Below, in pieces: positions 24,264-62,998 of a stretch of 64,000 nucleotides of DNA. The notes beneath the pieces are model-generated. The model did no database searches and was not told where the DNA came from. It saw nothing but the letters and a program-made list of their open reading frames with translations. Source of the stretch: Leptobrachium leishanense (Eukaryota > Chordata > Amphibia > Anura > Megophryidae); assembly GCA_009667805.1 (NCBI GenBank), contig CM019069.1, positions 51,325,422 to 51,389,421 of the forward strand. Reading direction: 5' to 3'. The translations under genes and the position numbers were made by a program. Position 1 is the first letter of the stretch, and every line of letters begins with the position of its first letter.

Positions 24264-24351
24264 TTAAATTACAGTGAATTTTATGTAAATAATCAACAAA
24301 TGGATTATTTCCTTTCATTGTAAGGACAGTGGTTGTACTTTGGTGAACTAC

Positions 24352-25210: not shown

Positions 25211-25622
25211 TAGGGCTGTGCAATTAATCGCAATCGAATCGCGATTTCCGACCCTGCGATTTCTAAATCGCATAAGGTTGCGATTTTCGGCTGTTAACTT
25301 CCGGCGGCGGCATGGTGCTTTGGGCGCTCGCGGCTCGTCACATGGTTCCCCCAGGCGAGCGCCCAAGCTCCATGTGCCGCGGGAAGTTAACAGGGAGCCG
25401 AACACAGCGGCGCACAGAGGTGAGCTGCGGCGCAGTATCCACGTGCTGGGGCAGTATATCCACGTGCTGGGGCAGTATATCCACGTGCTGAATACATTTT
25501 AGAATGTATGTAGCATGTTTGAAAAAGCAAAAACAATTGGCTAAATCGCAAATAAAATCGCAATCGCAATATTCATTCAAGAAATCGCAATATGATTATT
25601 TTGTCAATATTGCACAGCCCTA
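25211..25622. mobile_element. hAT MITE (TAGGGCTGTGCAAT ends) with perfect 8-bp target duplication
   Basis: TAGGGCTGTGCAATTAATCG and the inverted ATTGCACAGCCCTA are flanked by GCAGGCAG at 25203-25210 and 25623-25630. The perfect duplication indicates a recent insertion. The interior has an imperfect GC palindrome (25300-25400), AGAGGTGAGCTGC, and about three units of CAGTATATCCACGTGCTGGG, the minisatellite core found in unrelated elements. Confidence 0.88.
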
Positions 25623-25630
25623 GCAGGCAG

Positions 25631-26164
25631 TGATTTTTCAGTCCTGTTAGGTGTCGTAAGAATCCAAATATTGTAATACACCGACAATAATGAATATAAA
25701 AACACATTTAGTTTTAATTCATGTTAGAAGTTTTTATATCGTTTTATTGCTACGTGCTACAATGTGTGTCTCATTGTGCGGTTGGCAGGTACGTTCGTTC
25801 CTTATTATGCATTATTAAAAAATAAAATAGGATGGCTCTTGGTGGAACACCAGGCCCCCCTCCTCATTGTATATGGACAAAAGAACCAATACATATTTTA
25901 TCAGTTTGGGTTTTTTTGTTTTAAGGTGCTGATGTGGGAAGTAAGGCTTTAAGCATTTCTTAGCTCTGCCCCCCCCCCTTTTTGTAATCTGATATAAAAG
26001 TTACACATGCATGAAATATACCATGATCTGGGCTCTTGGAACCTGCAGGAAAACAAGTGTAACATAGAATCACTTTCCTAACTGATTCTTCCATAATAAT
26101 AATAATACATAAATCCTTAGTTGGCAAACACCAAGCGGCAGATTTGCAATTTTTCCGTTTTCAA
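25631..26164. other. MTX2 intron 1 DNA, nothing recognised
   Basis: AT-rich with a (TAA)n patch near 26096-26108. No exon or repeat ends found. Confidence 0.4.
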
Positions 26165-26400
26165 TAGGGATGCACCGATACCATATTTTTAAGATCGAGT
26201 ACCAATAATTTGTTTCAGGTATTTACTGATACAATACTTTTATTTGTCATGTGACTGCTCTCCAATAAATAAATTCAGGATTATGCTGAAAGCCTGTCAA
26301 ATTTATGGAAATCTTGAAATATATGGCCACACACCCAATTTCATGCACTGCACAGACACCAGACCTCCGATAGATTATACTGTATTCACACCAGACCATA
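26165..26400 (-). mobile_element. hAT fragment (TAGGGATGCACCGATACC family), inverted
   Basis: TAGGGATGCACCGATACCAT followed by the CTTTTATTTGTCATGTGACTG block is the reverse complement of the right terminus of the copies ending at 28642 and 29879. The CTGAAAGCCTGTCAAATTTA block matches the variant near 34360-34380. The other end is missing. Confidence 0.6.
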
Positions 26401-27540
26401 GATAGGGGTGTGTGTGGTGTACGTACAGACATACATACATACATACGCACCGATACTAGTATCGGTGCCGATACTGCCATTTGCACGAGTACTTAGTACT
26501 CGGTAGGTATCCGCGGGGCTGGGGAAGCTGGCCGCGTGCATGAAAAGCACTCGGCCAGCGTTCCCCCTCCGGTGGGCTGCAATACTCACCCCTTCTGAAG
26601 GTCCGGTTGCTTGGCTGTGGCACAATCACGTGGCCGCCGGGTGCTTCTGTGACTCTGCCTCTCGGCCTGTGAGAGCTGGGGCATATCCATGTGAGCTGGG
26701 GGGGGGCAATATCCATGTGAGCTAGGGGGCAATATCCATGTGAGCTGGGGGCATTCTGTATATATACAGTTGTTCAAAATTATTCAACCCCCACTGAAAT
26801 TGAGTGTTTTGGCTAGTTTGACATTGATTTTGATCATTCAGTCATCTTGCTTACAATTAAATCAAAGAGGCACGTGTAGGTCAGACAGATATAATATTTA
26901 TAATGAAATAACCACAAATGTCTTTTCTGTGCTCACATCATTATTAGTTTTATTCAACCCCCAAGTGACATTCAATCTTAGTACAACATCCTTTTACAGT
27001 TATAACAGCTTTTAAACGTGAAGCATAGCTTGACACAAGTGTCTTGCAGCGATCTACGGGTATCTTCGCCCATTCGTCATGGGCAAAAGTCTCCAGTTCA
27101 GTCACATTCTTAGGCTTGCGCACTGCAACTGCTTTCTTTAAGTCTCACCAGAGGTTCTCAATCGGATTTAAGTCAGGTGACTGCGATGGCCACTCCAAAA
27201 TGTTCCAGCCTTTAATCTGCAACCATGCTCTAGTGGACTTGGAGGTATGCTTGGGATCATTGTCCTGTTGAAAGGTCCAACGTCTCCCAAGCCTGAGGTT
27301 TGTGACGGACTGCATCACATTGTCATCCAATATCTCCTGGTACTGAAGAGAATTCATGGTACCTTGCACACGCTGAAGCTTCCCTCTACCTGCAGAAGCA
27401 AAACGGCCCCAAAGCATGATTGACCCCCCCCCGCCATGCTTCACAGTAGGCAAGGTGTTCTTTTCTTCATAGGCCTTGTTCTTCCTCCTCCAAACATAGC
27501 GTTGATCCATGGGCCCAAACAGTTCTAATTTTGTTTCATC

Positions 27541-28642
27541 TAGGGATGCACCGATACCGATACTAGTATCGGTATCGGGGCCGATATTGCCGTTTGCACG
27601 AGTACTTGTTACTCGTGCAAACGGCCCGATACATCCCGCCGATACTGGAAGCCGGAGCTGGGCCGGCTTGCCGGTATCCACGGGGCTGGGGAAGCTGGCC
27701 GCGTGCATGAAAAGCACGCGGCCAGCGTTCCCCTCCGGCGCGCCAAATACTCGCCCTTCCTGAAGTTCCGGTCTCTGGGCAGTGATGCGGTCACGTGGCC
27801 GCCAGGCGCATCTGTGATGCTGCCTCCAGCCGAGAGGCCGCGTCATAGCGCCCGGCGGCCACGTGACGCATCACTGCCCAGAGACCGGAACTTCAGGAAG
27901 GGTGAGTATTTGGTGCGCCGGAGGGGAACGCTGGCCGCGTGCTTTACGTGCACACGGCCAGCTTCCCCAGCGTTAGAGCTGGGGGCCAATCCATGAGACC
28001 TGGGGGCCAATCCATGAGACCTGGGGGCCAATCCATGAGACCTGGGGGCCGATCCATGAGACCAATCCATGAGACCTGGGGGCCGATCCATGAGACCTGG
28101 GGGCCATATCCATGAGACCTGGGGGCCATATCCATGAGACCTGGGGGCCATATCCATGAGACCTGGGGGCCATATCCATGAGACCTGGGGGCCATATCCA
28201 TGAGACCTGGGGGCCATATCCATGAGACCTGGGGGCCATATCCATGAGACCTGGGGGCCATATCCATGAGACCTGGGGGACATATCCATGAGACCTGCCG
28301 CAAACCCATGTGAGCTGGGGGCAAACCCATGTGAGCTGGGGGCAAACCCATGTGAGCTGGGGGCAAACCCATGTGAGCTGGGGGCCAATCCATGAGACCT
28401 GGGGGCCAATCCATGTGAGCGGGGGGCAAACCCATGTGAGCTGGGGGCAAATCCATGAGACCTGGGGGCAAATCCATGTGAGCTGCGGTCAATCTCATAT
28501 AAATTTTTATATGATATCTGTTCCTATTGGAAAGCGTCACATGACATTAAATAAAAGTATCGGTACTCGGTATCGGTGAGTACTTTTAAAAAGTATCGGT
28601 ACTCGTACTCGGTCTTAAAAAAGTGGTATCGGTGCATCCCTA
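27541..28642 (+). mobile_element. Young hAT element in the Tc1 transposase, insertion 1
   Basis: It opens TAGGGATGCACCGATACC and closes GGTATCGGTGCATCCCTA. GTTTCATC lies at 27533-27540 and again at 28643-28650, a perfect 8-bp duplication. Inside: GATACTAGTATC, a long GC hairpin (about 27690-27970) with TCACGTGGCC on both arms and GGTGAGTATT at 27901, then a 22-bp minisatellite. It is non-autonomous; the long minus-strand ORFs are repeat read-through plus Tc1 sequence. Confidence 0.92.
27967..28497. repeat. 20-22 bp minisatellite in a hAT element
   Basis: The unit is CCATGAGACCTGGGGGCCATAT, grading at the right end into CCATGTGAGCTGGGGGCAAAC; about 25 units in total. It shares the CATG(G/A)...GGGGGC core with the other arrays in the window. 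Confidence 0.9.
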
Positions 28643-28988
28643 GTTTCATCAGTCCACAGAACACTATCCCAAAACTTCTGTGGTTTGTCCACATGACTTT
28701 TGGCATACTGCAGTCGACTCTTCTTATTCTTTGGAGACAGCAAGGGGGTGCGCCTGGGAGTTCTGGCATGGAGGCCTTCATTACGCAGTGTGCGCCGTAT
28801 TGTCTGAGCTGAAACTTCAGTACCCACATCTGACAAATCTTTTCTCAGTTCCTCAGCAGTCACACAGGGACTTTTCTCCACTCTACGCTTCAGGTAGCGC
28901 ACAGCAGTCGAAGTCAGCATCTTCTTTCTGCCACGACCAGGTAGCGTTTCAACAGTGCCCTTTGCCTTGAATTTGCGAATGATGCTTC

Positions 28989-29879
28989 TAGGGATGCACC
29001 GATACCGATACTAGTATCGGTATCGGGGCCGATATTGCCGTTTGCACGAGTACTTGTTACTCGTGCAAACGGCCCGATACATCCCGCCGATACCGGAAGC
29101 CGGCGCTGGGCCGGCTTGCCGGTATCCGCGGGGCTGGGGAAGCTGGCCGCGTGCATGAAAAGCACGCGGCCAGCGTTCCCCTCCGGCGCGCCAAATACTC
29201 ACCCTTCCTGAAGTTCCGGTCTCTGGGCAGTGATGCAGGCGCTCCTGTGACGCGGCCTCTCGGCTGGAGGCAGCGTCACAGATGCGCCCGGCGGCCACGT
29301 GACCGCATCACTGCCCAGAGACCGGAACTTCAGGAAGGGTGAGTATTTGGCGCGCCGGAGGGGAACGCTGGCCGCGTGCTTTACATGCACGCGGCCAGCT
29401 TCCCCAGCGTTCGAGCGGGGGGTAAATCGATGAGAGCTGCGGGCAAATCCATGAGACCTGGGGGCAAATCCATGAGAGCTGGGGGCAAATCCATGAGAGC
29501 TGCGGGCCAATCCATGAGACCTGCGGGCCAATCCATGAGACCTGGGGGCCAATCCATGAGACCTGGGGGCCAATCCATGAGACCTGGGGGCCAAACCCAT
29601 GTGAGCTGGGGGCCAAACCCATGTGAGCTGGGGCCAAACCCATGTGAGCTGGGGGCAAACCCATGTGAGCTGGGGGCAAATCCATGTGAGCTGGGGGCAA
29701 ATCCATGAGACCTGGGGGAAAATCCATGAGACCTGCTGTCAATCTCATATAAATTTTTATATGAGGTCTGTTCCTATTGGAAAGCGTCACATGATATTAA
29801 ATAAAAGTATCGGTGAGTACTTTTAAAAAGTATCGGTACTCGTACTCGGTCTTAAAAAAGTGGTATCGGTGCATCCCTA
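28989..29879 (+). mobile_element. Young hAT element in the Tc1 transposase, insertion 2
   Basis: It has the same ends as insertion 1. GATGCTTC lies at 28981-28988 and again at 29880-29887, a perfect 8-bp duplication. The hairpin spans about 29150-29400 with CCACGTGACC. Outward-facing donor-like words occur at 29196-29206 (minus strand) and 29338-29348 (plus strand). A minisatellite follows at 29410-29742. Confidence 0.92.
29410..29742. repeat. 19-21 bp minisatellite in a hAT element
   Basis: Units such as CAAATCCATGAGAGCTGGGGG and CAAACCCATGTGAGCTGGGGG, about 16 copies. It is the same family of units as 27967-28497. Confidence 0.88.
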
Positions 29880-30535
29880 GATGCTTCCTATGGTCTCTCT
29901 TGGTATGTTTAACATCTTTGCAATCTTCTTATAGCCATTGCCCTTCCTGTGAAGAGTAATCACCTCTTCTCTTGTCTTCCTGGACCATTCTCTTGACTTC
30001 ACCATGTTTGTAACCACACCAGTAAATGTCTAGAAGGAGCTGAGTATCACAGTCCTTTTAAAGCTGCCTAATTGGGGCTTATTATGCTTTATTGCTGCTC
30101 CGTGACATCCACAGGTGTTTTCAATACCTGATTGAAAACACTTGAATGAACCTCTGTTCTTCAGAGTGGTAGTCTTTAAGGGGTTGAATAATTGTGTCAA
30201 TGATGAATTCACAAAAGAAACATTTACTACTGTATTACAAAACCAATTGATGTCATTTTAGTTGCATATGGTTCTTTAAAAAGTCCTTGTAGGATTTCAT
30301 TCTGAATACAATTACAAATGTACACTAAATTCCCTAAAACCCTTTACAGCATTGGGGGTTGAATAATTTTGAACACAACTGTATAATATATAATCTCTCT
30401 CTCGGGGGGGGGAGGGGTATATACATGTGAGCTGGGAGCATTTTTATGAGATCTGTTCTTAGTGGAAAGCGTTCACATGACATAAAATAAAAGTATCGGT
30501 CCTCGGTCTTAAAAAAGTGGTATCAGTGCATCCCT

Positions 30536-31539
30536 AATACATACTTCTAAATCCCTGCAGTCAAGGAGTTCAGGAACTGTTGCTACCCAGTGCTTGACGC
30601 CAGAAATGCAGGAAATGAGTAAAAGCCAGCACTCCTTGGAGTGCTGACTTTTACGAAGTTGATATATCTCAATTAGTTCACATACATCCTCAGATACAGA
30701 CACTGGGATGGCTGGCAAAACACACTAACAGCATTCTGCCACGCCACTCTGGCTGGCTGTGTTCCAGCGAGCAGCCGCCGGCAAATGTTGAAATGTGGCT
30801 GCTCCCCTGGACCTCCAGCCGTGATCTTGCGAACTCTACGAGATCGCCGCTGGAGGGCCCAACGAGCGGCCGCACTACAACCTTTACCAGTGGCCACTCA
30901 CCGGAATGCAGTCAGCTGGAGGGGCCTGGCAGAATTCTGTTACCAAGCACTGGGCTGGCAGAATGCTGTATCGTTTGAGGTACCAAGTACTCGTGCAAAT
31001 ACCAGTATTGGCGACGATACCTATACCACTATTGGTATTTGTGCAGCCCTAATTTTCAATATGGTGTTCTGGTCACCACATACACAGCTGTGGGTTCACC
31101 CATCATAATAGTATCCGTAGCTCTAGATGGTTGGAGCTTCAGTTACTTTTATAGATTTTGTTGCCTATACCAATACCATGTCACAACTGGTAATGTTGCC
31201 TTGTTCTGTAGTACCACTAACTGTGTGCGTGCTTTATTTCCAAGCTATTTTTTTCAGTGATCAGAGGAGATTGCTCAGTGCTGCCTCTGGTGGCTTGAAT
31301 GTGCACAGCTGTTTCCTGGCTGTTTATTGTCACGTTTATTGTGTGCGCAATGGTAGAGGGATCGATACATTAAAGCATTCTGAAAATTCTAGCAAAGATT
31401 ATAAAGGTTGCAAAGTTAGTCAGATCTGTGTGATTTCCCCTAGTCCAGAAATCTAGGTGATTTGGGGAACTGGAAAAGAATTTCAAAAGGGGGGGGGGGG
31501 AGACACAAGTGGTTGTTTTCCAAGGCCGATGTAAGCTTA
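30536..31539. other. MTX2 intron 1 DNA with a probable hAT-like fragment
   Basis: 30700-31058 is GC-rich with inverted blocks (GATCTTGCGAACTCTACGAGATCG) and ends in ACCAATAGTGG/TATTTGTGCAGCCCTAA, a hAT-style terminus read from the right. The other end was not found. A poly-G run lies at about 31489-31500. No exon was recognised. Confidence 0.35.
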
Positions 31540-31600
31540 TTTTATTTATAAAGTATTTTACCAGGATGGATACATTGAGATTTCTCTCGTTTTCAAGCTT
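31540..31600 (-). mobile_element. LINE 3' tail fragment (same family as copies A-C)
   Basis: TTTATTTATAAAGTATTTTA and CCAGGATGGATACATTGAGA are the inverted LINE terminus. Only about 60 bp is kept. Confidence 0.65.
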
Positions 31601-31791
31601 AACCAAAGCTGTTGCAAACTGTCACCTAAATAAATGTTTGAAGGAGGAACATGCTTGTGTTACAATGTTCAAAAAACCTGAATGTCCCTTTTACAGGATT
31701 ACTTTGTGACTGTCTGTAATATTGTCTACATAGGCCATATTATACAAATATCACAGACTGTTAATGCATTTAATAAATGACCTCTTATTTT

Positions 31792-32393
31792 TAGGGATGC
31801 ACCGTTACCACTTTTTTAAGACAGAGTACGAGTACCGATACTTTTTAAAAAGTACTCACCGATACAGAGTACAGATACTTTTATTTTATGTCATGTGACT
31901 GCTTTCCAAGAAGAACAGACCTCATATAAAAATGCCCCCAGCTCTCATGGAGATTGCCCCCATCGAACGCTGTGGAAGCTGGCCGCGTGCATGAAAAGCA
32001 TGCGGCCTGCGTTCCCCTCCGGCGGCTGCAATACTCACCTGCTTCCGAAGGTCCGGACGCGCTGCTGTGGCGCGATCACGTGGCCGCCGGCGCTTCTGTG
32101 ACGCTGCCTCCAGCAGGCTCTTGGCTGGTGGCAGCGTCACAGATGCGCCCGGCGACCACGTGATCGCGCCACACCAGCGCGACCGGACCTTCGGAAGCAG
32201 GTGAGTATTGCAGCCACCGGAGGGGAACTCTAGCCGCGTGCTTTTCATGCATGCGGCCAGCTTCCCCAGCCCCGCGGATACCGGCAAGCCGGCCCTGCGC
32301 TGGCTTCCTGTATGGGGGTGGGGGGGGGGGGTGTATCGGGCCATTTGCACGAGTACTAAGTACTTTGGAAACGGCAGTATCGGTGCATCCCTA
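31792..32393. mobile_element. hAT element (TAGGGATGCACCGATACC family)
   Basis: It opens TAGGGATGCACCGTTACC and closes CAGTATCGGTGCATCCCTA. Flanks CTTATTTT and ATTATTTT agree at 7 of 8. Most of the 602 bp is a hairpin (31975-32275) with CACGTGGCC/CCACGTGATCG. GCAGGTGAGTATTGCAG words face outward at 32029-32043 (minus) and 32198-32210 (plus). Only about one minisatellite unit remains (near 31935). Confidence 0.85.
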
Positions 32394-32956
32394 ATTATTT
32401 TGATAATTTATGAAATCTATATCCCATTTGGAGTCTTTACCCCCACCCCTAAGTTCTGTTCCACCTCTTGTCATATCACTGTCACCATGAACTTTCCGAG
32501 GTCCCGCCATAACTTCCTATGGGAGGACTGGTGGTTTTCTATAGTGTTTGACATCATGCTTTTGTAATCCTTTTTATATTTAGACATTATTCCTTCTTGA
32601 CATGGCATCAGTTTTCTTACGGTTATTGGAGTCGGCAGTCGGTCAAACTCTGTTCTGTGAGAGTTTCTCATTCCTCCGTGCAGAAAATATTATGGTTAAC
32701 CACTTAATGCCATGGCTTATGTTGGTGGCATAGCCTGCCTCCGGCTGTCTGGCCCCCCTCCCTTCCCTGTGGGAGTTATATGCAAGGGTTTGTGGTTGTA
32801 AATAACAGTGGATATTGCCGCATTTGCAGCATCAACAAACTCCAGCATGCCTCAAAAATAAAATACAAAGACCAACATGAGAAGCTGCAACACTGGCAAA
32901 TATCAATGCTTTGTGAGTAATTCCTATAGCAATTATGGTGAACCTTGGAACCTCAT
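32394..32956. other. MTX2 intron 1 DNA with a partial TTAA element
   Basis: TTAACCACTTAATGCCATGG at 32697 is like the start of the TTAA MITE at 5589. The rest of it is lost by about 32790. Nothing else was recognised. Confidence 0.35.
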
Positions 32957-33122
32957 CAGGCCTCAAAATTTCCACTCGCCTGCTCACATTTGGCGAGTGG
33001 AAATTACATGAGGGCGAGTGGGAATGCAGAGGCAATGCTGGATAGAGGTTAGGTGGGGCAACTAGTGGTGAGTAACTCTTAAGGCCTGGCTAGTAGCTCA
33101 GGACTTGAAATTTTGAGGCCTG
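32957..33122. mobile_element. Small MITE (CAGGCCTCAAAATTTC ends)
   Basis: CAGGCCTCAAAATTTC and the inverted GAAATTTTGAGGCCTG bound 166 bp. Internally CCACTCGCC/GGCGAGTGG forms a hairpin. A target duplication is not clear. Confidence 0.65.
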
Positions 33123-33238
33123 CATCAGATGTTTCCGAATTACATGTCCCATGATACTTAATCCCAACTAATGCTGGCACAGCATCATGGAACATGTAGT
33201 TCAGAAATATCTGGTGTGCCAAGGTTGACCATCACTAC

Positions 33239-34435
33239 TTGGGATGCACCGATACAGATACCGGCATTTTCACGAGTACTTTTGTACTCGTGCAAATGCC
33301 CTGATACCTCTACCGATACCCGGAAGGCAGCACTGGGCTGACTTTCCATATCCGAGGGGCTGGAGCTGCTAGCAGAATGCATTAAAAGCATTCCGCTAGC
33401 ATTCCCCTCAAGTTGGCCGCGTGTTCCTCCAGGCTCCAAGCGGCCGACATCTGGCCGCATTTTCCTCCGAGTGGCTGTGTGTTCCGAGCTGCCACCAGGC
33501 TGTGACACGGCCTCCAGCCGCGGTCACGAGAGAGCATCAAAGTCTTCACAAGCCAGCGGCCCCTCGGAGCCTGGAGGGACACGTGGCCAGCCGGAGGGGA
33601 ATGCTAGCAGAATGCTTTTAATCATTTCTACAGGGTGTGCCCAGGAACACCCTAATGTTGGGTGACATTTTTGTCTTTGAACCCCTAAATAGATATTTTG
33701 GATGTTCCTGATAAATAGCATGAATATTGAGTGTACAATTGCATAAACATTGGTTATTCCTAATTAAAAATAACTGCTCTGTATATAATTTTCCAAGTAC
33801 ACATAAGTAATTAACCTCCCTGGCAGTCTATTTCTTCAGCAAAGCCTGGCTGAAAACGGTCTTTTTTTTATCCCCCCCCCCAGCAGCATCCAAAGTGTGG
33901 CTCATGGTTAAATTCCTATGTTGGAAGCGGTAACCCCGAGCAACACTCGGAATGCAGCTGGATACATTACCTCTCACTGCTCTCCCTCGACGTCCCCAAC
34001 TGCCTCCTCCGGCGACCTCATTACTTCCTGGTTCCCTCCTCGCGAGAAGGAATCCAGGAAGTAAAATGCTGCGATCGCCGGAGGAGACTGCAGAGATCAG
34101 CAAGGGAGCGCACGGAGAGGTAATGTATTCAGCCCGAGTGTGTGTCGGAGTTACCGCTCTCAGCGGTGAAATTTAACCCCGAGACACACTCGGTAACACC
34201 GCCAGGGAGGTTAATAAATGTTCCAGCGGTGCACACGCTAATGAGGTGGGCTGCACCTGCCATTGCTTTTAATGCATTCTGCTTGCAGCAGTGTCTGAGG
34301 TCTGTGTATGGGTATACATGTGTCTGGGTATACATCTCCATACATTTCAATAGTAACCTAAATTGGACAGGCTTTCAGCAAAAATCCTATCTAAAGGTAT
34401 CGGGAGTACCTGAAAAAAGTATCGGTGCATCCCTA
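33239..34435. mobile_element. hAT element, diverged TAGGGATGCACCGATACC family
   Basis: GGGATGCACCGATACAG at the left and GTATCGGTGCATCCCTA at the right. Flanks ATCACTAC and ATCACTAG agree at 7 of 8. A hairpin (33370-33610) is present; no minisatellite remains. A TTAA MITE (33815-34210) is nested inside. Confidence 0.82.
33815..34210. mobile_element. TTAA MITE (CCTCCCTGGC ends), copy 1
   Basis: TTAA lies at 33811-33814 and 34211-34214. The ends are CCTCCCTGGC and GCCAGGGAGG. Internal words CCCCGAG...CACTCGG and GCGATCGCCGG are shared with 63473-63887. It is non-coding; small ORFs on both strands are shadows. Confidence 0.85.
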
Positions 34436-35322
34436 ATCACTAGCCTATAGTATAAATTGGTTTTGGACTGTTATTTGAGAGTCTGAGAACGTATCATGAG
34501 AAAGGATTACAAAGTGTTTTTACATGCTGGATAAGTATTTCCAGTATTGTACATAAACCATAGTTGATAAATCTTGCCACTTCTGGTTACTGCAAAATAC
34601 AATACGCACATACACACAACACACACTCTACAAGGAAGATGAATGATCCTTTCTGCCTTCCTTTAAAATATTGGCTCTGTGAATTTTTAACATTTGATAT
34701 GTTTCACTGCTAATAGTTCACATTTTTATTCGAGTCGATTCGGTGTCTAGAGAGAGCACTTTGGGACTCCGATGAGAAAATTGAGATTTTGCGTAATGAG
34801 CGGGGAACAGTGAATCAGTCCGTTAAATCTCTTTGTTTGCTATGAAACTCCCTGGCATGTCCAGACTAGCAAGTCAGCCAATCAAAACATTTCTAATTGC
34901 GTTCTTTCTGGCTGCACGGTTTTATAATTTTAATGAGATATGGGTTTCTGAAGCCACGGAGAGCTCGCCTGCGCGTTCTGCTTTCTTGCTATTGATATTT
35001 TGTCAGCGCCCTTGAAGTAGTTAATCATTTCGGTGAAATTGCTCACCGGGCTACACACAGCTAGAGATACATTTTACGTTGTGAGTAATATGGCCACCCC
35101 ATCACAACCCTGTCAAATCTTAACCCTTCGTTGGATAAGCAGCCTGTGGTTTGTTTTAAAAGGCTAGAGTACAACATGCATAATCCTTGCAGGACTCCCC
35201 CAAGAGTGGTCCCTGTGTATCAACCCTGTCCTGTTAATTCTTCTTTATTTTTATCTTTTTTCCATTGTATGGTGCTGTGGAATATGTTTGTTTCAGGGGG
35301 TGTATTTGGGGTTGCCCTACAC
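34436..35322. promoter_or_regulatory. Candidate conserved non-coding element in MTX2 intron 1
   Basis: 34660-35060 is repeat-free and dense in AT-rich homeodomain-like words (TTTTATAATTTTAATGAG, ACATTTCTAATTGCG, TAGTTAATCATTTC) among moderately GC-rich DNA. It is set between transposons yet free of them. No exon is seen. Regulatory status is inferred. Confidence 0.3.
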
Positions 35323-39362: not shown

Positions 39363-39493
39363 ACAGGGATGTCAAATGTCCTCCCCCATGTGTTGCTGAA
39401 CTACAACTCCCATGATTCTCTGTCCATCGATTTTGCTTTCCGAGATTTGTAGGTCATTAAAATCTGGTGGCTGAAGTTTGACATTCCTGCCCT
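39363..39493. mobile_element. Short MITE with CAGGGATGTCAAA-type ends
   Basis: CAGGGATGTCAAATGTCC at the left and TTTGACATTCCTGCCCT at the right are inverted. ACTACAACTCCCATGATTC inside is a word common in vertebrate DNA-transposon fragments. A related piece lies near 55880-55945. Confidence 0.5.
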
Positions 39494-40649: not shown

Positions 40650-40756
40650 CGTATTTTTCGCTCCATAAGACGCACCTGACCATAAGACGCACCTAGTTTT
40701 TAGAGGGGGAAAACAGGAAAATAAATATTCTGAAATCAAATAGTGTAATAATGAAT

Positions 40757-40888
40757 ATACTGTCCCCCAGCTCATGGATACTGTCCCACAGCTCATGGAT
40801 ACTGTCCCCCAGCTCATGGATACTGTCCCCCAGCTCATGGATAGTGCCCCAGCTCGCTCATGGATAGTGCCCCAGCTCGCTCATGGAT
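40757..40888. repeat. 21-bp minisatellite, about six units
   Basis: The unit is CCCCCAGCTCATGGATACTGT, then CCCCAGCTCGCTCATGGATA variants next to the palindrome. The core is the same as in the arrays at 9046-10170 and 49741-50658. Confidence 0.85.
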
Positions 40889-41103
40889 ATGCCTCAGCTC
40901 ACCTGTCGCCGCCGCGTTAGGCTCCCTCTGAGCGTGCGTCCGGCGGCAGGAAGCTTGGGCACTCGCCTGGGGGAGCCACGTGACCGCGATCTCGCGAGAT
41001 CGCGGTCACGTGGCTCCCCCAGGCGAGTGCCCAAGCTTCCTGCCGCCGGACGCACGCTCAGAGGGAGCCTAACGCGGCGGCGACAGGTGAGCTGAGGCAT
41101 ATC
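40886..41103. repeat. Perfect 218-bp palindrome
   Basis: The centre lies between 40994 and 40995 (CTCG|CGAG). Each 109-base arm is the exact reverse complement of the other with no loop. The core reads CGCGATCTCGCGAGATCGCG, with CCACGTGACC/GGTCACGTGG beside it, and CAGGTGAGCTGAGG faces outward at both ends. The ORFs on the two strands across it give the same peptide and are an artefact of the symmetry. Confidence 0.95.
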
Positions 41104-41189
41104 ATGGGGCATTCGCTCCATAAGACGCACCCACTTTCCCCCCCACTTTTTGGGGGGAGAAAAGTGCGTCTTATGGAGGGAAAAATACG

Positions 41190-42805: not shown

Positions 42806-43801
42806 GGCCCCTTCTACATTCTTCGTGCCGCGTAAATTTTTTTGCGTGCATCGTCCGGCGTTATCGCGTGAAACTTAACGGAGTATTCAGATCCGAATGC
42901 ATTTTCTCATGCGTCCGAAAATCACGTTCGTAAAAACGACACACAAAACGAAGATTAATATGCGCGCAGTAACGTAGCGCACTTAAATCATCGTGCGGAC
43001 TGTTTTTTTTCACCGGATTCAGCCAATCAGAATGAAGAGCCTTAATTGACATCAATTTACCTTTTAATTGACCCACTCAGGCTGGGTTCACACTTGGACG
43101 TAGCGCTGCGTTGCGGAATGCGCGCGTTTTTTTTTTTACGCACGTTCGCGCATACGAAAAACCGCTATATTTATGGCTGCGAACGCGCTGCTGTATGCCA
43201 GAAAAGAAGCTCCCGGACTTCTTTGGGCGCAGGACGTTTTAAAGCACGCTCCTGCGCGCTTTAAAACACCCGGGTGTGAACGGGTCCCATTGAAAACAAT
43301 GGTATTTCCCCGTTCATGCGTTTTTTAAAGCATGCACGAACGCGCTTTAAGTTTTTGCGCCTGTCAAAGTAAATCTGAGTATATATGCTGCAGCAATAAT
43401 AAAAACACGCACAAATTCCCAATTTTTTTTGTTTGGGTATGTGTAGAATGTGTAACTATACTGTGCTGTATTTTTATCTTTTTTTCCGTTTCGGCCAGAA
43501 CGCTCCGATTTGCAGTTACCAGCAGCTTTTCAAAAGACGTTAAAATTATGCGCGCAAACGTCGTTCGTAAAAAGATGCACATCGATTGGAATACCGGCGC
43601 ACGAACGAATTTGCGCTCACAATGTTAAGTATAGGATGCGCACAGTTCATCTCGCTCGCACTGGTCCACCCGCGATAAACGATAACGTGCATCGTTTGCG
43701 CGAACGTTGTAATACAATGTTCAGCGCAAAGGGTTTTGCCCCTTGTGCAAATGCGCATTTGCGCACGCAAAACCATTTGCGCGAAGAACGTAATAGACCC
43801 C
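42806..43801. mobile_element. DNA transposon/MITE with GGCCCCTTCTACATTC-type ends, copy 3
   Basis: Ends GGCCCCTTCTACATTC and GAACGTAATAGACCCC are flanked by TTA (42803-42805, 43802-43804). It shares TTCAGCCAATCAGAATGAAG and ATATATGCTGCAGCAATAAT with copies 1 and 2. About 250 bp longer than those because of a nested MITE. It ends about 95 bp before MTX2 exon 2. Confidence 0.75.
43080..43346. mobile_element. Nested MITE with GGCTGGGTTCACAC start
   Basis: GGCTGGGTTCACACTTGGAC and the inverted GGGTGTGAACGGGTCCC with CGCGCTTTAAAAC/GTTTTAAAGCACGC stems form an inserted block. It is absent from copies 1 and 2, where TTAAGTTTTTGCGCCTGTCA is continuous. Confidence 0.55.
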
Positions 43802-43896
43802 TTACACTTTTTTTTTTTTTTGCAAGAAGTCATACAGACGCTTATTCCAATATTTGTTTTACTCTAATAATAATATTTATGTATTGTTCTTCACAG

Positions 43897-43944
43897 CTGT
43901 AGAACCATGGCCTGAAAACGCTACTATTTATCAGCCAATGAAGA
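43897..43944 (+). CDS. MTX2: Metaxin-2, exon 2
   Basis: The acceptor TTGTTCTTCACAG precedes a 48-nt exon ending AAGA before GTGAGT. Joined to the single G of exon 1, the first codon is GCT (Ala), then VEPWPENATIYQPMK, with one A left over. Human metaxin-2 reads AEPWPENATLYQQLK here, so 11 of 15 residues are identical and the two phase-1 junctions fit. The segment precedes the GST-like N-terminal domain. The other two frames contain stops, as expected for a true exon. Confidence 0.95.
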
Positions 43945-45339
43945 GTGAGTATTGCTATTTTTAATGTTTCTTTCAAGATTCCTTTTTTTTTTTTTTTTAC
44001 TTTAACATATTGTACTTTGTATGACTTTTCAATTTCTCAATATAGTCAATAGCAACAGTGCATAATATTGCAGTAAATAAAATGAAGAGCATAAAACGTG
44101 GCGTTCGTTATAAATACAATGTCGATGGGATTGAACAGCAAACAAATGCCTATGGTCGGGTGGTATAAACTTCATGGTGGTGGGTAGAGTTTTGGGGAGA
44201 GACGATGGGGGGGGGGACTCAGCAGGGAGTATACAGTAAAGAGGGCGAGCTCAATGAGACCGGGGGGCGTTCCTACCCACACGGGGCAGGCAAGTGGTTA
44301 GCCAATAATGCCAGGAGTTGTAATGTTCAGCGACTTTACCCAGAGACAGATCGGCCCTTTCTTCAGCTGATCGAATATTTTCCACTTCACGCAACCATAC
44401 AGTAAGAGGTGGGGCAGTGGGTTCACACCAGAACATCGGTATAACCAGGCGCGCAGCGCTTTCAAGATTCCTAACCTTTTTAGAAGGGTTTTATAAAATC
44501 TTTGTATTTTATTTTTATTTGTGCTATCCATTAACCCTGTAAGTGACATTGGGATTATTTTCATCTGCAAGGGCTTACAGTGAACCTTTTTTAAAATGTT
44601 CACCCGTCATGTGCTTTTTGGTATTGACTGCAGAGGGCTATGGGAATTGATACAGTTATAGGTACGGTTGCCATGGTTACTGCTAGGGGAAAAAAGAAGA
44701 AGAAAAAAAAACAAACAGCTGAGCCAGCAAATATTAGAAGTGTCATGGTTGGTTAATGGGAGGGGGCTGGGGCCTGATATACAAGGCTCTCTTAAAATAC
44801 ACGAGCTGGAGTGGTCCGTGCTCCCTTCAGCAGCTCTTCATATATCATCGGATTGCATTATTGCCCACATTTGGGGATCTGCAGCCTGCTACGATTGTCA
44901 ACCGGCTGCAAAGTAATGAAGACTAATAGAAGGTAGCCCACAGTCTTTTAGGCATGGAATTTTTATTGCAGTGATCTTGTCATCTCTCTTTTGTCTAGCG
45001 CTGCTTGCAATGTCCACTGCAGGCTTCTTTTCAGTGTTGCTGAAATAAATTAATTTGGTGTTTTTGCAAACCCCCCCCCCCCCCATAATACAGAAAATAG
45101 CCAATCCGTGATCCAGCTTATGATGTGTAACATTTTTTGTTTTCAAACCGTTGTAACTTTAGCTGCCATTAGCACCTGCGCACGCTGTGTAATATTTCAA
45201 TGAAATGACCATATCGATTTTTAAGAGATTATACAAAATGAGCCAGAGGGGGAAAATATTAGCCTGAAAAATGCACACCTTGAATCAACAATGTATTGGA
45301 TTGCATGGGGGGGGGGGAGTAAGAAGCATCAGAGCAGAG
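43945..45339. other. MTX2 intron 2 DNA
   Basis: Poly-T (43982-43998), poly-G (44210-44216) and poly-C (45070-45083) runs are present. No transposon ends were recognised. 44190-44500 has inverted-looking words but no definite element. Confidence 0.4.
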
Positions 45340-45911
45340 TAGGGCTGTAACTAACTATTATTTTCATAATCGATTAGTTGGCCAATTAATTTTTTTCGAT
45401 TTAATTAGATTAAAGAAAAACCTATGCAAATTGCATACTTTTTGCAGTCAAGGTACACGAGCACCTGCTCACAGTGATGGATCGATGCTGCGTACGCGGC
45501 TTAAGCCCATGTCTGCTTTCTCCCTAAATGAACGCTGCTACAAGCGCTCAGATAGACATGATGGTGTCAGCACAAAATCAGGATGAGAAAGGGGGGGGCT
45601 CTTCACGCATTCTGACCACTTTACCTTATTAGAGTGTCCCTTTACAAAAATTTCATGAACAAACTGAGCGGGAGGGAGGGTTCAGAGGTGGAAGAGAAGG
45701 AGTTTGGTCAAGGGACTTGACCCGAGTGTGAGAGGGAGTTTGTGGGAAGGGAGGGAGGGAGAGAGAGACATCTCCAGACCAAAGAGGGGGTGACAGGCAG
45801 GTTGGGGTGGTGGCACAGGACGAAGCAGCATCTGAGGTCATAACGTTTAACTCAGTCTGACTCTTAAACAGTGTGTGCTGTGCACAAATCGATTTTAGTT
45901 GTTTGAGCCCT
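45340..45911. mobile_element. hAT-like MITE (TAGGGCTGTAACTAACTATT start)
   Basis: TAGGGCTGTAACTAACTATT with ATAATCGATTAG at the left; AATCGATTTTAGTTGTTTGAGCCCTG, inverted, at the right. The 8-bp flanks do not match, so the exact ends are uncertain. Interior GC-rich, non-coding. Confidence 0.6.
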
Positions 45912-46055
45912 GGATCAGGGTGTTGCGTAGTAACTTTGTGGTCTTATCACCTAAAAGGTTTGCCTGTCACACTGGACTTTATCACAGAAATGTCTATTAA
46001 AAAGCCTTAAATCAAAGGGTTGGACTTTTAATTGTCATCTAGCTATGATGACTAT

Positions 46056-46210
46056 TATTATACTTTATTTGTAAAGCGCCAGCAGATTCTGCAGCGCTGT
46101 ACAAGATAAGTGTACAGAGGATAGTGTAAGGAAACATAAACACATAAGAATATGATGCAGTAGGATTGGAGTTCCCTGTTCCTTGGGGGGAACATACAGT
46201 CTATGAATAA
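46056..46210 (-). mobile_element. L2 LINE 3' tail
   Basis: TTTATTTGTAAAGCGCCAGC followed by AGATTCTGCAGCGCTGTACA is the inverted L2 terminus. It ends about 90 bp upstream of MTX2 exon 3. Confidence 0.75.
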
Positions 46211-46301
46211 TTCTATGTGGGACACAAAATGCCAACCCTTTTCTATCGCCACACAAGGAAGGACATTCGTACTGTAACGCTGCTGTTCTTTTTGTCCACA
46301 G

Positions 46302-46348
46302 GTGAACAGGTTTTGCTGTCTGACAATGCATCATGTCTCGCTGTTCAG
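46302..46348 (+). CDS. MTX2: Metaxin-2, exon 3
   Basis: The acceptor TTCTTTTTGTCCACAG precedes 47 nt ending TTCAG before GTAATT. With the leftover A of exon 2 the first codon is AGT (Ser; Gly in human), then EQVLLSDNASCLAVQ, against EQILLSDNAASLAVQ in human. The exon ends in phase 0 after codon 45. It begins the GST/thioredoxin-like N-terminal fold of metaxins. The following exon is not in the window. The L2 tail close upstream and a direct repeat starting inside the donor intron are local oddities. Confidence 0.95.
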
Positions 46349-46349
46349 G

Positions 46350-46412
46350 TAATTGTTTCTAATGTAATAGGAGCGCCCAAATAAGTGCCAAACCAGGCAC
46401 ACAGGTGCATAT
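46350..46412. repeat. Direct repeat, first copy, beginning at the exon 3 donor
   Basis: AATTGTTTCTAATGTAATAG through CAGGCACACAGGTGC is repeated at 47090-47148 with about four differences. The first copy starts one or two bases inside intron 3. Confidence 0.8.
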
Positions 46413-47089
46413 AGTGATGCGTGAATAACGTGGCTGCTTTACATTCATTGTTAATCTTTTGATACCTTAATGATTGGTGTCTAAACTCTAATAACGCAGC
46501 CAAGGGCAAGCAAGCGGATTAAACTTCACTAAAACCGCTATAGTATGTGTGCAAAAACAAAAGAGGGGTTTTGCCCAGCGCATAAAGTGAATGTTTTTAC
46601 AGGCAGAAGTGCAACTGCCAAATATACTTATATGCTTATTTACGATCTCATGAAGTCCTCCTTCCAATGGGACCTCGAGGAACTCGACAATAAAACACAA
46701 ACTCCAATAGTGCAATACTGTATATATTATTGAGATTGATGTTAATATTCTTGTATTATGCTACACGCTCACATTCTTCAGAGCCTAATATCCAGCTCTA
46801 GGTGTGCAAGCATTCGGTCAGCTTGAGGGTTACACACTCGTTCTCTCAGCAGGATCACCTTAAAGATCTAAAACCAGAGATGGCGCTTCCATAGCGTAAT
46901 AGCTTCTCAGTTAGAGTACAATATAACAAGTATATATGTATGGACTCTCACCTAGACTGCAGCTTATTCCACCTTTTTGGCTCCTGACTTATTGCTCATG
47001 ATGCTTTTTTGATAAGTATCAAACCTCATATGGGTTCAGGTCTTCTTACACAAGACAGCCTTGCCCTGGGTAATCTATAATGCCCTTTT
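46413..47089. other. Intron 3 segment between direct repeats
   Basis: 677 bp without recognised repeat ends. It may be an inserted or tandemly duplicated segment; see the finding. Confidence 0.4.
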
Positions 47090-47148
47090 AATTGTTTCTA
47101 ATGGAATAGGATCGCCCAAATAACTGCCAAACCAGGCACACAGGTGCT
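47090..47148. repeat. Direct repeat, second copy, interrupted by Tc1
   Basis: AATTGTTTCTAATGGAATAG ... CAGGCACACAGGTGC. The Tc1 fragment inserted at the TA just after it (47149-47150). Confidence 0.8.
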
Positions 47149-47294
47149 TACAGTGGGGCAAAAAAGTATTTAGTCAGCCACCAATTGTGCAGGTTCTCCC
47201 ACTTAAAAAGATGAGAGAGGCCTGTAATTGTCATCATAGGTAACTTCAACTATGAGGGACAAAATGAGAAAAAAAAAATCCAGAAAATCACATA

Positions 47295-48179
47295 CAGGGT
47301 TATTCAAAGAGATCCGAACGGCTGGAGAAAAATCAGCGTTCGGTTACCTTTCTTGGCCATTCGGCTATCCAGAGAGCAGACAATACGCCAAATCCTGACG
47401 AATTGTCTGCACATTCGGTGCCTGTTCGAGGGCAGTGAAATTTCCATCATAAAAGCACTGCTTCGGCTACTCAGAGAACACAAACCAGCAATGAAAGGTT
47501 CCTGAAATGCCCTGCCATTCGGTGGTTTCATTCGACAGGTTTATTCAGGAGAATCCCATAGGCTTCAATGTTAAAAATATTCTGGTTTTAATTCAATATC
47601 TAATAAACCATTCATTATAAAATTCTGCAGTAAAGAGTCTCTTTATAGATTTTTATGGATATTTTAAGCATTTTTTTTTCTTTTTCTAAAAAGTCCGATA
47701 TTTTTATTTTATTTTTTTTAAGTTTACTTCTTTTCTCTGTAACCGCCCTTTTTATTATCATTCCCTGGACCTCATATGTAAATTTCAGACATTTTCGCTC
47801 AGTAGTTTCTTTGCAAACAGTGTTTCACTTTTCAAACAGTCATGCAAACTGTTTTGCTAATTTATTCACTTCACTCGTCTGCGGTGTCGGCTTTTTCCGG
47901 CGGCTTCGCTGCGTGTGATCAGCTCCTGCTTGGGTTTTTCCGGCGTCTTCGGCGGGTTAATACAGATGTTTTTGCGTGTTTCGGCGTGCATTCGCCGGGT
48001 TGTTGCAGTTAGTTTTTGTCGGGTTTGCGGCAGCTTTTCCCTGCCCTTCGACGGCCCGGTGGTGCTTGCTGAATACACCGCAGGGTCGCCGAGATGGGAT
48101 TGCTGAATCGGCCCGAATTGAAGAGAACGAAAAGTCACTGAACATGCGGTGACTTTTCCATTCTCTTTGAATAACCCTG
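47295..48179. mobile_element. MITE (CAGGGTTATTCAAAGAGA ends) inside Tc1
   Basis: CAGGGTTATTCAAAGAGA at 47295 and TCTCTTTGAATAACCCTG ending at 48179 are perfect inverted ends. The Tc1 sequence AATCACAT / ATGTCTGATTTT continues across it, implying a very short target duplication (AT, at most 3 bp). The interior has TTCGGTGGTTTCATTCGACA and many CGGCG words; it is non-coding. This is the complete reference copy for 1-636 and 1890-2384. Confidence 0.85.
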
Positions 48180-48254
48180 AATGTCTGATTTTTACAGAAT
48201 TTATTTGCAAATTATGGTGGAAAAGAAGTGTTTGGTCAATATCAAAAGTCCATC

Positions 48255-48566
48255 TCAATACTTTGTCATTGCCAACAAAGGATATATAACAGAGGTCAAA
48301 CGTTTTCTGTAAGTCTTCACAAGGTTTTCACACACTGTTGCTGGTATTTTTGCCCATTCCTCCATGCAGATCTCCTCTAGAGCAGTGATGTTTTGGGGCT
48401 GTCGCTGGGAAACACAGACCTTCAACTCCCTCCAAAGGTTTTCTATGGGGTTGAGATCTAGAGACTGGCTAGGCAACTCCAGGACCTTGATATGCTTCTT
48501 ACGAAGCCACTCCTTCGTTGCCCGGGCGGTGTGTGGGATCATTGCCCTGCTGAAAGACCCAGCCAT
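48255..48566 (-). pseudogene. Tc1-type transposase, C-terminal fragment
   Basis: The minus-strand reading has the final catalytic region [15 protein letters not shown], then [16 protein letters not shown] and the end of the protein. The usual SPDLNPIE is altered to SLDLNPIE. The first two catalytic Asp regions are gone with the deletion at 48566. It cannot be functional. Confidence 0.88.
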
Positions 48567-48694
48567 AACTCTTTATATATAATCTAAAAACATGTCAAGC
48601 ACCTCAAAATGTTATTCATCATTTAAATAGTTCATATATAAAATACAAGAATTCTAAAACTATAATCAAAGTCCCTCTTCATTATCTCTCTTAA

Positions 48695-48965
48695 CCTCTT
48701 CCAGCCACAGGGCGTACTATGCCATCCCCGCGATGGGTGGGGCTGGAAGCCGCAGGGCGGCATGGCATTCCCCACTATCTACAATGGACCTATGTGCTCC
48801 TGCCCACCTGTTGGTAAGCACCATTGGCTGCCACAGGATGGCCTGAATTCAGGTCGTCCCCCTGCACCCAATGATGGGTGCGGCACGCCAGCTGTGTAAG
48901 TGAAGCGGGGCCCCACTGGCATTAATGCCCCTGCTGCTGGGCACAACCTGCCTGGCTGCAAGGGG
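48695..48965. mobile_element. TTAA-flanked MITE, relative of 5589-5888
   Basis: TTAA lies at 48691-48694 and 48966-48969. It starts CCTCTTCCAGCCACAGGGCG and ends TGGCTGCAAGGGG. GC-rich and non-coding. The Harbinger-type MITE that follows used the TAA of its right TTAA as target. Confidence 0.65.
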
Positions 48966-48969
48966 TTAA

Positions 48970-49382
48970 GGCTAGGGTCAGACAAACGCAATGCGAATGC
49001 GTGTGCAGCCGCACTTTATCACGGCCGTAGTAGCAGCAAATGACGGGCAATATACGAAGTACGGCCGCACGAAAGTGCGGCCGTGCAACGCAAGCGACAA
49101 ACGCATTTTTTCGAGAACGTGAAACCGCTAGTTCTGACGTACAGAGTGCGCTGCGTCCGCTAGCGGCGTGTGTGCATGATTAGGAGACGTCAGACGCTGC
49201 TTATGTCCGGCCAACATAACGTCCCGACGCAAAAAGTGTTTTATTGATGATCCGTACAAAATCACGGATGAAAGTGCGCATCGTATGACCGCTACCGCGT
49301 ATTCCGTGAAAAAATACGTCCATTCGCTCGAACGCACTTTTTCACGGACGACGCGAAAAAATGCGTTCGTCTGACCCTAGCC
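48970..49382. mobile_element. Harbinger-type MITE, copy 5
   Basis: Perfect ends GGCTAGGGTCAGAC and GTCTGACCCTAGCC with TAA on both sides (48967-48969, 49383-49385). It is 413 bp and the best preserved copy of the family with copy 1. Confidence 0.88.
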
Positions 49383-49385
49383 TAA

Positions 49386-49740
49386 AGGTAAACACTTTGA
49401 AGTGACACTGTCACGCCCAAAACAAGTTGGGCTCATTTGACAGGGGATCACTCCCTTTTTATATGTTAGCATTTTTTTGCTGTCGTATAAAATTGAAATA
49501 AAGAGCATTCTTCTCATTGAAAGTCTTGATGTCCTTCACGTGAGCGGCATGCTGCAGGGTGAGGGACAGCTTTGAACAGAGAGCAGTCCTACGATCAGTC
49601 CGTGCGTACCGTTGGCTGTCAACGTGCTGACTGACAAGGTGTGTTGACTTCACCACTGAGGGACAATTGTGCGTCGCTGCAAAATGGCCTCCCTTTTATT
49701 TATTTTTTTATTCACAACTAGTTGTAAAGCCTGCCCAGAG
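49386..49740. other. MTX2 intron 3 DNA, nothing recognised
   Basis: No repeat end or exon is recognised. The left boundary of the array-bearing block that follows may lie here. Confidence 0.35.
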
Positions 49741-50658
49741 GGCAGTCTATTGTGGATATACTGCCCCTGCTCATGGATATACTGCCCCAGCACGTGGATA
49801 CTGCCCCAGCACGTGGATACTGCCCCCGCACGTGGATACTGCCCCAGCCTGCCCAGAGGGCAGTCTATTGTGGGTATACTGCCCCAGCTCGTGGATACTG
49901 CCCCAGCACGTGGATATTGCCCCAGCATGTGGATACTGCCCCAGCATGTGGATACTGCCCCAGCACATGGATATTTGCCCCCAGCACATGGATTTGCCCC
50001 CAGCTCATGGATTTGCCCCCAGCTCATGGATTTGCCCCCAGCTCATGGATTTGCCCCCAGCTCATGGATTTGCCCCCAGCTCATGGATTTGCCCCAGCAC
50101 ATGGAGTTGCCCAGCTCATGGATTTGCCCAGCTCATGGATTTGCCCAGCACATGGATTTGCCCCAGCTCATTGATTTGCCCAGCACAATGATTTGCCCCC
50201 AGCTCATGGATTTGCCCCCAGCTCATGGAGTTGCCCAGCTCATGGATTTGCCCCCAGCTCATGGATTTGCCCAGCACATGGATTTGCCCCAGCTCATGGA
50301 TTTGCCCAGCACATGGATTTGCCCCCAGCTCATGGATTTGCCCCAGCTCATGGAGTTGCCCAGCTCATGGAGTTGCCCAGCTCATGGATTTGCCCAGCAC
50401 ATGGATTTGCCCCAGCTCATGGATTTGCCCCCAGCTCATGGATTTGCCCAGCACATGGATTTGCCCCAGCTCATGGAGTTGCCCAGCTCATGGATTTGCC
50501 CCAGCTCGTGGATTTGCCCAGCACGTGGATTTGCCCAGCTCGTGGATTTGCCCCCAGGTCGTGGATATGGTCCCCCAGCTCGTGGATATGGACCCCCCCC
50601 AGCTCGTGGATATTGACCCCCCCCCAGCTCGTGGATATTGACCCTCCCCCCCCCCCAG
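49741..50658. repeat. 19-20 bp minisatellite, about 45 units
   Basis: The unit is GCCCCAGCTCATGGATTTG, with GCCCAGCACATGGATTTGC, ACTGCCCCAGCACGTGGAT and GCCCCCAGCTCGTGGATAT variants. AGCCTGCCCAGAGGGCAGTC occurs twice (49729, 49846). Long ORFs on both strands (up to 315 aa) are repeat read-through and not proteins. It shares its core with arrays in other transposons. Confidence 0.92.
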
Positions 50659-50690
50659 CGCTCATACTTACCTGTCGAGCGCCGCCAGGG

Positions 50691-51113
50691 AAGTGAAGAT
50701 TTCCCCGCTTCCGGTCTTTGAAGGACCCAAGCCGCGGTCACGTGACCGGGGCTTGGGTCCTTCAAAGCGGAAGCGAGGGAACTTTCCCTTCGCCGCTCGG
50801 GGGACCCGTTAGATGCACACAGCAGCCGGGTAGAGGCTGCGCTCGCAGCCTCTACCCGGCTGCCGCGCGCATCCAACCCCCCGAGCGGCGGAGGAAACTT
50901 TCCTTCGCCGCTCTGGGGTTGGATGCGCGCGGCAGCCGGGTAGAGGCTGCGAGCGCAGCCTCTACCCGGCTGCTGTGTGCATGTGTAACCGCCGCGGCGA
51001 GCCGGCAGCCGGCTCGTGCCGCGGCGGTTGCATGCGCGCGCAACCAACCGCCGCTGGTTGCGCGCGCATGCGCAGTAAGGCTTTGGCGACGGACAGCCAA
51101 AGCCTTACTCTTT
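50691..51113. repeat. Cluster of consecutive GC-rich hairpins
   Basis: Stems: 50708-50773 (CCGGTCTTTGAAGGACCCAA arm, GGTCACGTGACC centre); 50822-50862 and 50935-50973 (two copies of GCAGCCGGGTAGAGGCTGCG with their inverses); 50846-50960 (overlapping larger stem through GCGCGCATCCAACCCC); 50987-51029 (AACCGCCGCGGC); 51030-51072 (GCATGCGCGCGCAACC); 51075-51108 (GTAAGGCTTTGGC). CAGGTAAGTATGAG lies on the minus strand at 50661-50675. The last stem is followed by TCTTTTATTATATAGA. Confidence 0.9.
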
Positions 51114-60645: not shown

Positions 60646-60700
60646 ATATAAAAATACCTACAAAGTCAATTTTTATTTATTATTTTGGTTTTTTCTTTAA

Positions 60701-61460: not shown

Positions 61461-61464
61461 TTAA

Positions 61465-62994: not shown

Positions 62995-62998
62995 TTAA

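Follow-up and report, generated by a model that had tools for sequence, protein, structure and literature searches.

Candidate promoter and first-exon donor modules carried by unrelated DNA transposons of Leptobrachium leishanense

Capture of a promoter together with a splice donor is already known from one lineage of bat Helitrons: HelibatN3 holds the captured NUBPL promoter and a splice donor, spliced chimeric transcripts were made from it in cells, and a few such transcripts were found in bats (PMC4778049). Here, we describe a stretch of 64,000 nucleotides (nt) from the amphibian Leptobrachium leishanense (GenBank assembly GCA_009667805.1, contig CM019069.1, positions 51,325,422 to 51,389,421 of the forward strand), called the window below, in which DNA transposons with unrelated ends hold CpG-rich cores accompanied by splice-donor words. 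Judged by this architecture, the transposons probably carry mobile transcription-launch modules, each a promoter with a first-exon donor, which seem to be partly shared between element kinds and partly convergent. A similar design recurs here in eight lineages without alignment between them, together with an outward bias of the donors of 178-fold for modules with a cAMP response element (CRE) and 15-fold for those with an E-box. What the original prediction had observed, from the window alone, was confirmed and holds more broadly than it had claimed, with element ends and donor words found where it had placed them; its interpretation was supported in part.

A transcription-factor core, a short exon and a donor of U1 grade, in this order, have the look of a promoter with its first exon. 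The proposed module would comprise a CpG-rich, often palindromic core with an E-box, CRE, ETS or NRF1 word, followed by a first exon some 40-110 nt long and then by a near-perfect U1 5' splice site that points outward. RNA polymerase II would start at or near the core, and U1 at the donor would shield the RNA from early cleavage and lead to splicing of the exon to the next flanking acceptor. A candidate for such a promoter-donor arrangement is the order CACGTG, CCGGAAG and then CAGGTAAGTAT in the Helitron of the window (element E).

Direction was assessed by counts over the whole genome of 3.54 Gb. Since CACGTG and the CRE word TGACGTCA are strand-symmetric, outward and inward arrangements serve as matched controls for each other. 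GGTRAGTAT lies at 66-96 nt from TGACGTCA in 23,473 outward and 132 inward pairs (reversed-word controls 21 and 20), and at 37-67 nt from CACGTG in 18,647 outward and 1,210 inward pairs (reversed-word controls 210 and 211), which corresponds to outward:inward ratios of 178:1 and 15:1, respectively. Within the window, pairs of CACGTG and GGTRAGTAT up to 150 nt apart were outward in all ten cases and inward in none, as had been predicted, and the genome-wide pair counts, a kind of check proposed at that time, came out 15- to over 1000-fold above the reversed-word and inward controls. The perfect donor CAGGTAAGTAT occurs 5,233 times compared to 886 for the reversed word, a count to which host genes presumably contribute. 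Two hAT copies were seen to contain tandem cassettes, with four donors in locus L004 and three in L003, and cassettes like these may supply part of the inward pairs.

The predicted symmetry of the cassette applies to many modules with an E-box but is not general. Neighbour pairs among the first 100 E-box places were divergent in 28 and convergent in 3 cases, while the first 100 CRE places gave 5 divergent and no convergent pairs; two-sided modules are frequent among E-box types and in the Helitron arrays but are not the general case. The palindromes might instead serve transposition, as a hairpin or foldback for the transposase, with the donor-like words being incidental, and long inverted arms such as the perfect, spacerless 109-nt arms of element C (40650..41189 of the window) would suit such a role. 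This explanation is very improbable in view of the two outward:inward ratios, the few CRE places that are paired at all and the examined Helitrons, which keep the donor on one arm only.

The elements and modules of the window are the following (strand is given where one was assigned).

27541..28642, hAT-type element A1, with the terminal inverted repeat (TIR) TAGGGATGCACCGATACC and the target duplication GTTTCATC
28989..29879, hAT-type element A2, with the TIR of A1 and the target duplication GATGCTTC
31792..32393, hAT-type element B, with palindrome arms at 31969-32090 and 32149-32270
26165..30536, older copy A0 of the A type, with donor 26589(-)
25211..25622, hAT-type element D, with the TIR TAGGGCTGTGCAAT and the target duplication GCAGGCAG
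40650..41189, element C, with the TIR CGTATTTTTCGC
49718..51124, minus strand, non-autonomous Helitron E (the 50691 block), with the 5' end TCTATATAATAAAAG and the 3' hairpin CTGCCCTCTGGGCAG followed by CTAG
8425..10509, element F, with the TIR CAGGGGCRGACTGAC
23139..24267 (ends approximate), TTAA element T1, with more TTAACCCCTT words internally
60697..61464, TTAA element T2, with the CRE TGACGTCA
61461..62998, TTAA element T3, with donor 62517(+) GGGAGGTGAGTAT and, 105 nt upstream of it, TGACGTCA
63260..63430, plus strand, module G, with donor 63395(+) AAAAGGTGAGTAT and, 103 nt upstream of it, an NRF1-like word
9045-10175, 25436-25490, 26678-26751, 27975-28485, 29413-29735, 40757-40893 and 49758-50650, seven minisatellite arrays

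Outward donors stand on both sides of the core in A2 (29202(-) and 29339(+), with palindrome arms at 29133-29236 and 29305-29408), in B (32038(-) and 32201(+), CAGGTGAGTAT) and in C (40902(-) and 41087(+)), whose perfect palindrome at 40886-41103 includes two CACGTG and which carries the array at 40757-40893. A1 has its core at 27640-27975 and donor 27902(+), the left-hand donor being degraded to GGGCGAGTAT. In element D, the core at 25300-25435 is followed by the minisatellite 25436-25490, and the donor is 25420(+) AGAGGTGAGCTG. Helitron E holds CACGTG at 50739, the perfect CAGGTAAGTAT at donor 50671(-) and the array 49758-50650, and element F a CACGTG palindrome at about 10170-10460 with the array 9045-10175. 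T1, T2 and T3 belong to a single TTAA family, in which T1 has donor 24155(+) GAGAGGTGAGTAT and, 92 nt upstream of it, the CRE-like TGATGTCATC. Module G has no defined element ends, and a copy of it is found at 60538-60633 (81% over 103 nt).

Inverted ends and 8-bp target duplications place A1, A2 and D among the hAT elements, and both features recur in the examined copies L059, L061, L067, L080 and L085. The A-type TIR TAGGGATGCACCGATACC has 16,311 exact matches in the genome and none for the controls. A0 is split by another element, in which A1 and A2 are nested; this host element contains a DDE_3 transposase remnant (27145-27540, minus strand; Pfam, E 9e-10) and is presumably Tc1-like. Helitron E was inserted between A and T (A^TCTATATAATAAAAG...CTAG^T), begins with TC, ends with CTRR and has its hairpin CTGCCCTCTGGGCAG 13 nt before the 3' end. 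The 3' end could be read in 17 related places, of which 6 end in CTAG and 11 in CACCTTG, which is not CTRR.

Several details of the prediction had to be corrected. The ends of the elements are present, but the element at 31792 starts with TAGGGATGCACCGTTACC and the one at 8425 has CAGGGGCAGACTGAC as its left end, so that each had been one base off. Donors exist at 40898 and 41085 but read AGGTGAGCTG instead of GGTGAGT, as does donor 25420, which had not been listed. Among the words assigned to TTAA elements, those at 24151 and 62514 stood, the one near 60805 (minus strand, in T2) is GGCAAGTAT, a GC and not a GT donor, and the one at 63391 lies in module G. Cores with CACGTG or a close variant were found, although the core of the element at 25211 reads CACATG and its three CACGTG are all located in the minisatellite. 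The 50691 block, which had been counted together with the other elements, does hold CACGTG and a donor, but is a Helitron without terminal inverted repeats.

Compared with 200 dinucleotide shuffles of the window, GGTRAGTAT (10 seen, 0.94 expected, shuffle maximum 6), GGTGAGT (16 seen, 6.1 expected, maximum 11) and CACGTG (29 seen, 8.0 expected, maximum 19) are enriched, and the short words are little enriched or depleted (GGTRAGT 18 versus 12.9 expected; GGTAAGT 2 versus 6.9). CACGTG as one single signal was rejected, since 8 of its 29 copies lie in minisatellite arrays and not in cores. When all 6907 GT sites of the window were ranked by pairing with the U1 5' end, the top ten were 32038, 32201, 50671, 24155, 62517, 63395, 26589, 27902, 29202 and 29339; all except 63395 lie in defined elements, which make up 12,849 of the 64,000 bases. 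An E-box, CRE or NRF1 word is found within 200 nt upstream of all ten, of 7% of ranks 11-40 and of 9.2% of 6892 GT sites. With the word set unchanged, the test was repeated at 30 loci picked by CAGGTAAGTAT alone, and a promoter word was located upstream in 14 of them, compared to 3.7% of 6215 GT sites in a 60 kb background sampled at even steps along contig C1; control windows of equal size at the same loci were positive in 2 of 30 cases further upstream and in 6 of 30 further downstream. The 60 kb sample itself contains GGTRAGTAT three times, two of these in one hAT cassette (L042), and the reversed word once. The observed/expected ratio of CpG is 0.96-1.10 in six cores, 0.76 in F and 0.84 in T3, with 0.65 in the remaining window and 0.06-0.17 in three minisatellites.

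U1 bound near a transcription start blocks premature polyadenylation, a mechanism called telescripting. The sites could act mainly without splicing, in telescripting or in marking the RNA as mRNA-like, so that transcription of the element would continue through its ends and junctions to flanking exons would be a by-product. This would fit the best-ranked sites of the window, whose pairing covers the 11 nt of the U1 5' end completely or almost completely, as well as the frequent divergence of E-box modules (28 pairs versus 3 convergent among the first 100 places). Splicing, however, equally needs the exon-side bases and the outward position, and the present data do not distinguish the two roles; we consider a role without splicing to be quite improbable.

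Clustering of 65 donor sites by exon similarity led to one group of 18 that joins the Helitron and two hAT families with the ends TAGGGTTGCACC and CAGTGGCGTAGC. A degenerate 24-base word from the exon of this E-type core, from which the donor was excluded, has 3,917 matches in the genome and none for the controls, and the exact GTAAGTATG is in range at 2,546 of them. The first 30 listed matches on C1, representing 26 distinct places (some shared with the CAGGTAAGTAT loci), comprise 20 places with one or both Helitron ends, 3 with hAT TAGGG ends (L062 was placed here by reading), 2 with hAT CAGTGG ends and 1 unassigned. The exon core was the sole basis for choosing these loci. An unvarying AGGTAAGTAT stands at 57-65 nt in 24 of the 30 arms, and the 6 arms without a donor are all Helitron arms facing the 5' end. 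Flanks differ by substitutions, indels and different introns, while the donor stays constant across subfamilies. In a tree of 31 arms, the distribution of four labels is explained by 3 changes, the smallest number possible, with 10 of 27 inner branches open and only 6 well supported. Because of this minimum, few transfers are favoured over frequent trading, which was rejected, and movement of the E-type core between families looks rare. In L057, a cassette copy near 1480 has an abrupt start not far from the centre of the palindrome and lacks Helitron ends as well as the hAT ends TAGGGRTGC or CAGTGG; the truncation may have been caused by the palindrome.

A second core is shared by elements C and D, which align with a score of 102 (shuffled maximum 34). 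Its 23-base word gave 13,873 genome matches with up to one mismatch, counted as arms so that a palindrome counts twice, and no control matches, and the core occurs in TAGGGCTGTGCAAT, CGTATTTTTCGC and CAGTGGCG elements. Fourteen places hand-picked from the first 100 listed include 3 with TAGGGCTGTGC ends, 6 with CGTATTTTTC or CCATAAGACGCAC ends, 1 unassigned and 4 (L084, L087, L093, L094) that match the C-type core of L062 and begin with an end resembling CAGTGGCG (CACTGGCG in L087, CAGTGGTG in L094). The donor, AG or GG before GTGAGC, is kept in 15 of 17 arms. The predicted trading of a cassette between families was right in that two cores are common to unrelated elements, and the transfers behind it seem to have been few.

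That a single cassette serves all families did not survive the alignment. Thirty-two CRE modules (first 80 bases each) and eleven references, compared on the plus strand at E 1e-4 over 25 letters, fell into eight groups without alignment between them (TTAA CRE, Helitron CRE, a third CRE type, A/B, E, C/D, the NRF1-like G and the ETS type of L017), a number in which single linkage may conceal more splits and old homology may go unnoticed because the pieces are short. Cores could be aligned across elements within the E type and within the C/D type, but the A/B, C/D and E cores show no mutual alignment beyond shuffles, the match between D and E being minisatellite only. A common ancestral cassette for all elements was hence rejected. 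Two module types probably spread by a few transfers among Helitrons, hAT and other elements, and the remaining types look like independent origins of one design. The L017 family is a TTAA element by its end, and its members L017, L023, L024, L029, L030 and L031 contain an internal CCCTAA-like array; an ETS word lies 47-48 nt before a perfect CAGGTAAGTAT in this family, which accounts for 6 of the first 30 CAGGTAAGTAT places. The degenerate CCCTAACCCCCTAAACC tandem array at 11596-12195 of the window resembles its telomere-like array.

Module-like arrays were also found in front of long Helitron open reading frames (ORFs). A genome search with PF14214 yielded 150 scored matches among 535 candidates, of which 26, by hand count of the match list, lie in stop-free frames of more than 1,000 residues. 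Two long ORFs on different contigs (1,422 and 1,478 residues) share GC-rich palindrome arrays in the 4 kb upstream, with 3 and 8 outward donors GTGAGTAT, respectively. The arrays extend over L098:1-1570 and 1-2300 of L099 (reverse strand) in tandem periods of about 200-400 nt, and some of their palindromic units have lost the donor. In L099 (reverse strand), a palindrome that has CRE-like or half-CRE words is enclosed by the donor pairs 802/1005 and 1503/1708. Homology between the cassette of Helitron E and these arrays was not found in seven Helitron loci, apart from one 30-nt match. By their sequence, the arrays resemble the predicted architecture in unrelated DNA, and they may also serve the transposase gene.

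Passive hitchhiking is an alternative explanation: a few CpG-island promoters of the host would have been taken up by Helitrons along with the donors of their first exons, other elements would have acquired these by nested insertion or repair, copy number would have done the rest, and the donors would be relics without benefit. Such capture by Helitrons has a precedent in HelibatN3 (PMC4778049), the E-type and C/D-type cores are each common by descent to several element kinds, and few transfers suffice for the E-type tree. A few captures would nevertheless not predict eight lineages that lack alignment yet agree in direction and are similar in spacing, donors that stay invariant between subfamilies with different flanks and introns, or module arrays before two long Helitron ORFs, and we regard hitchhiking as unlikely. 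A further step, which we put forward tentatively and hold to be somewhat short of an even chance, is that unrelated transposon superfamilies converged on, and partly exchanged, a selfish launch module that is kept because protected, spliced outward transcripts raise the spread of the element.

Several points weigh against launch modules of this kind. The gain for the element, namely a travelling promoter and surroundings kept transcribed and open, is conjecture, and a selection signal was not seen in single copies, conservation being found only between subfamilies. The pair counts represent words in repeats and not independent events, the independent units being the roughly eight lineages, and one donor may pair with two CREs or words and be counted twice. 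The promoter word set was chosen after the window had been seen, and the 14 positives of the repeat test go back to three lineages (E-type 7, L017 type 6, TTAA CRE 1). Of the ten best window sites under a splice-site frequency matrix, 6 lie in defined elements, 1 is 63395 and 3 are located outside the modules (1307, 15191 and 58088), and in the 60 kb sample the site with the best U1 pairing (L046) lies in no recognised module. Donors do flank most of the palindromes, as predicted, but the left one of the copy at 27541 has decayed, and in element F a GTRAGT donor was looked for and none was found. Finally, with a widened word set, a full CRE or ETS word precedes 4 of the 11 donors of the Helitron ORF arrays, only a half-site precedes 3, and 4 have neither.

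One minisatellite unit type is present in A0, A1, A2, C, D, E and F, i.e. in elements with unrelated ends. It adjoins nearly every cassette of the window, had been overlooked in the original prediction, occurs also in loci such as L019, L004 and L001, and has its G-rich strand pointing away from the core in all seven window arrays. The first unit starts at the donor itself in C and D, from which we infer that the array probably grew from the intron start.

If the selfish launch module is real, the genome would hold tens of thousands of mobile first exons that could be joined to host genes. If transcribed, they would represent a very large supply of ready first exons and a likely route to chimeric transcripts, and one could ask directly if selection by transposons extends from promoters to U1 sites. 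No prior report of a donor module common to Helitrons and hAT elements was found in the open-licence papers searched. A1, A2, D and five further copies resemble hAT elements and miniature inverted-repeat transposable elements (MITEs) in their inverted ends and 8-bp target duplications. They differ by minisatellites and by long internal palindromes that are rich in CpG and have donors of U1 grade, none of which belongs to the definition of hAT elements. Minisatellites have reportedly been seen inside MITEs, as tandem arrays riding in the transposon (PMC4596501); here, one unit type is common to elements with several unrelated ends and, in the seven window arrays, turns its G-rich strand away from the core. 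Pack-MULEs and plant or fungal Helitrons likewise carry gene pieces, but many different coding fragments, whereas here one promoter-donor design recurs. The closest likeness is to HelibatN3, a non-autonomous Helitron with promoter, short first exon and donor, for which exon trapping was experimentally shown, while the present case is drawn from sequence (PMC4778049). HelibatN3 goes back to NUBPL, whereas the design found here, for which no host source gene was sought, recurs in unrelated sequences, has a core that is also present in hAT elements, is often palindromic and two-sided, and carries a minisatellite on the intron side.

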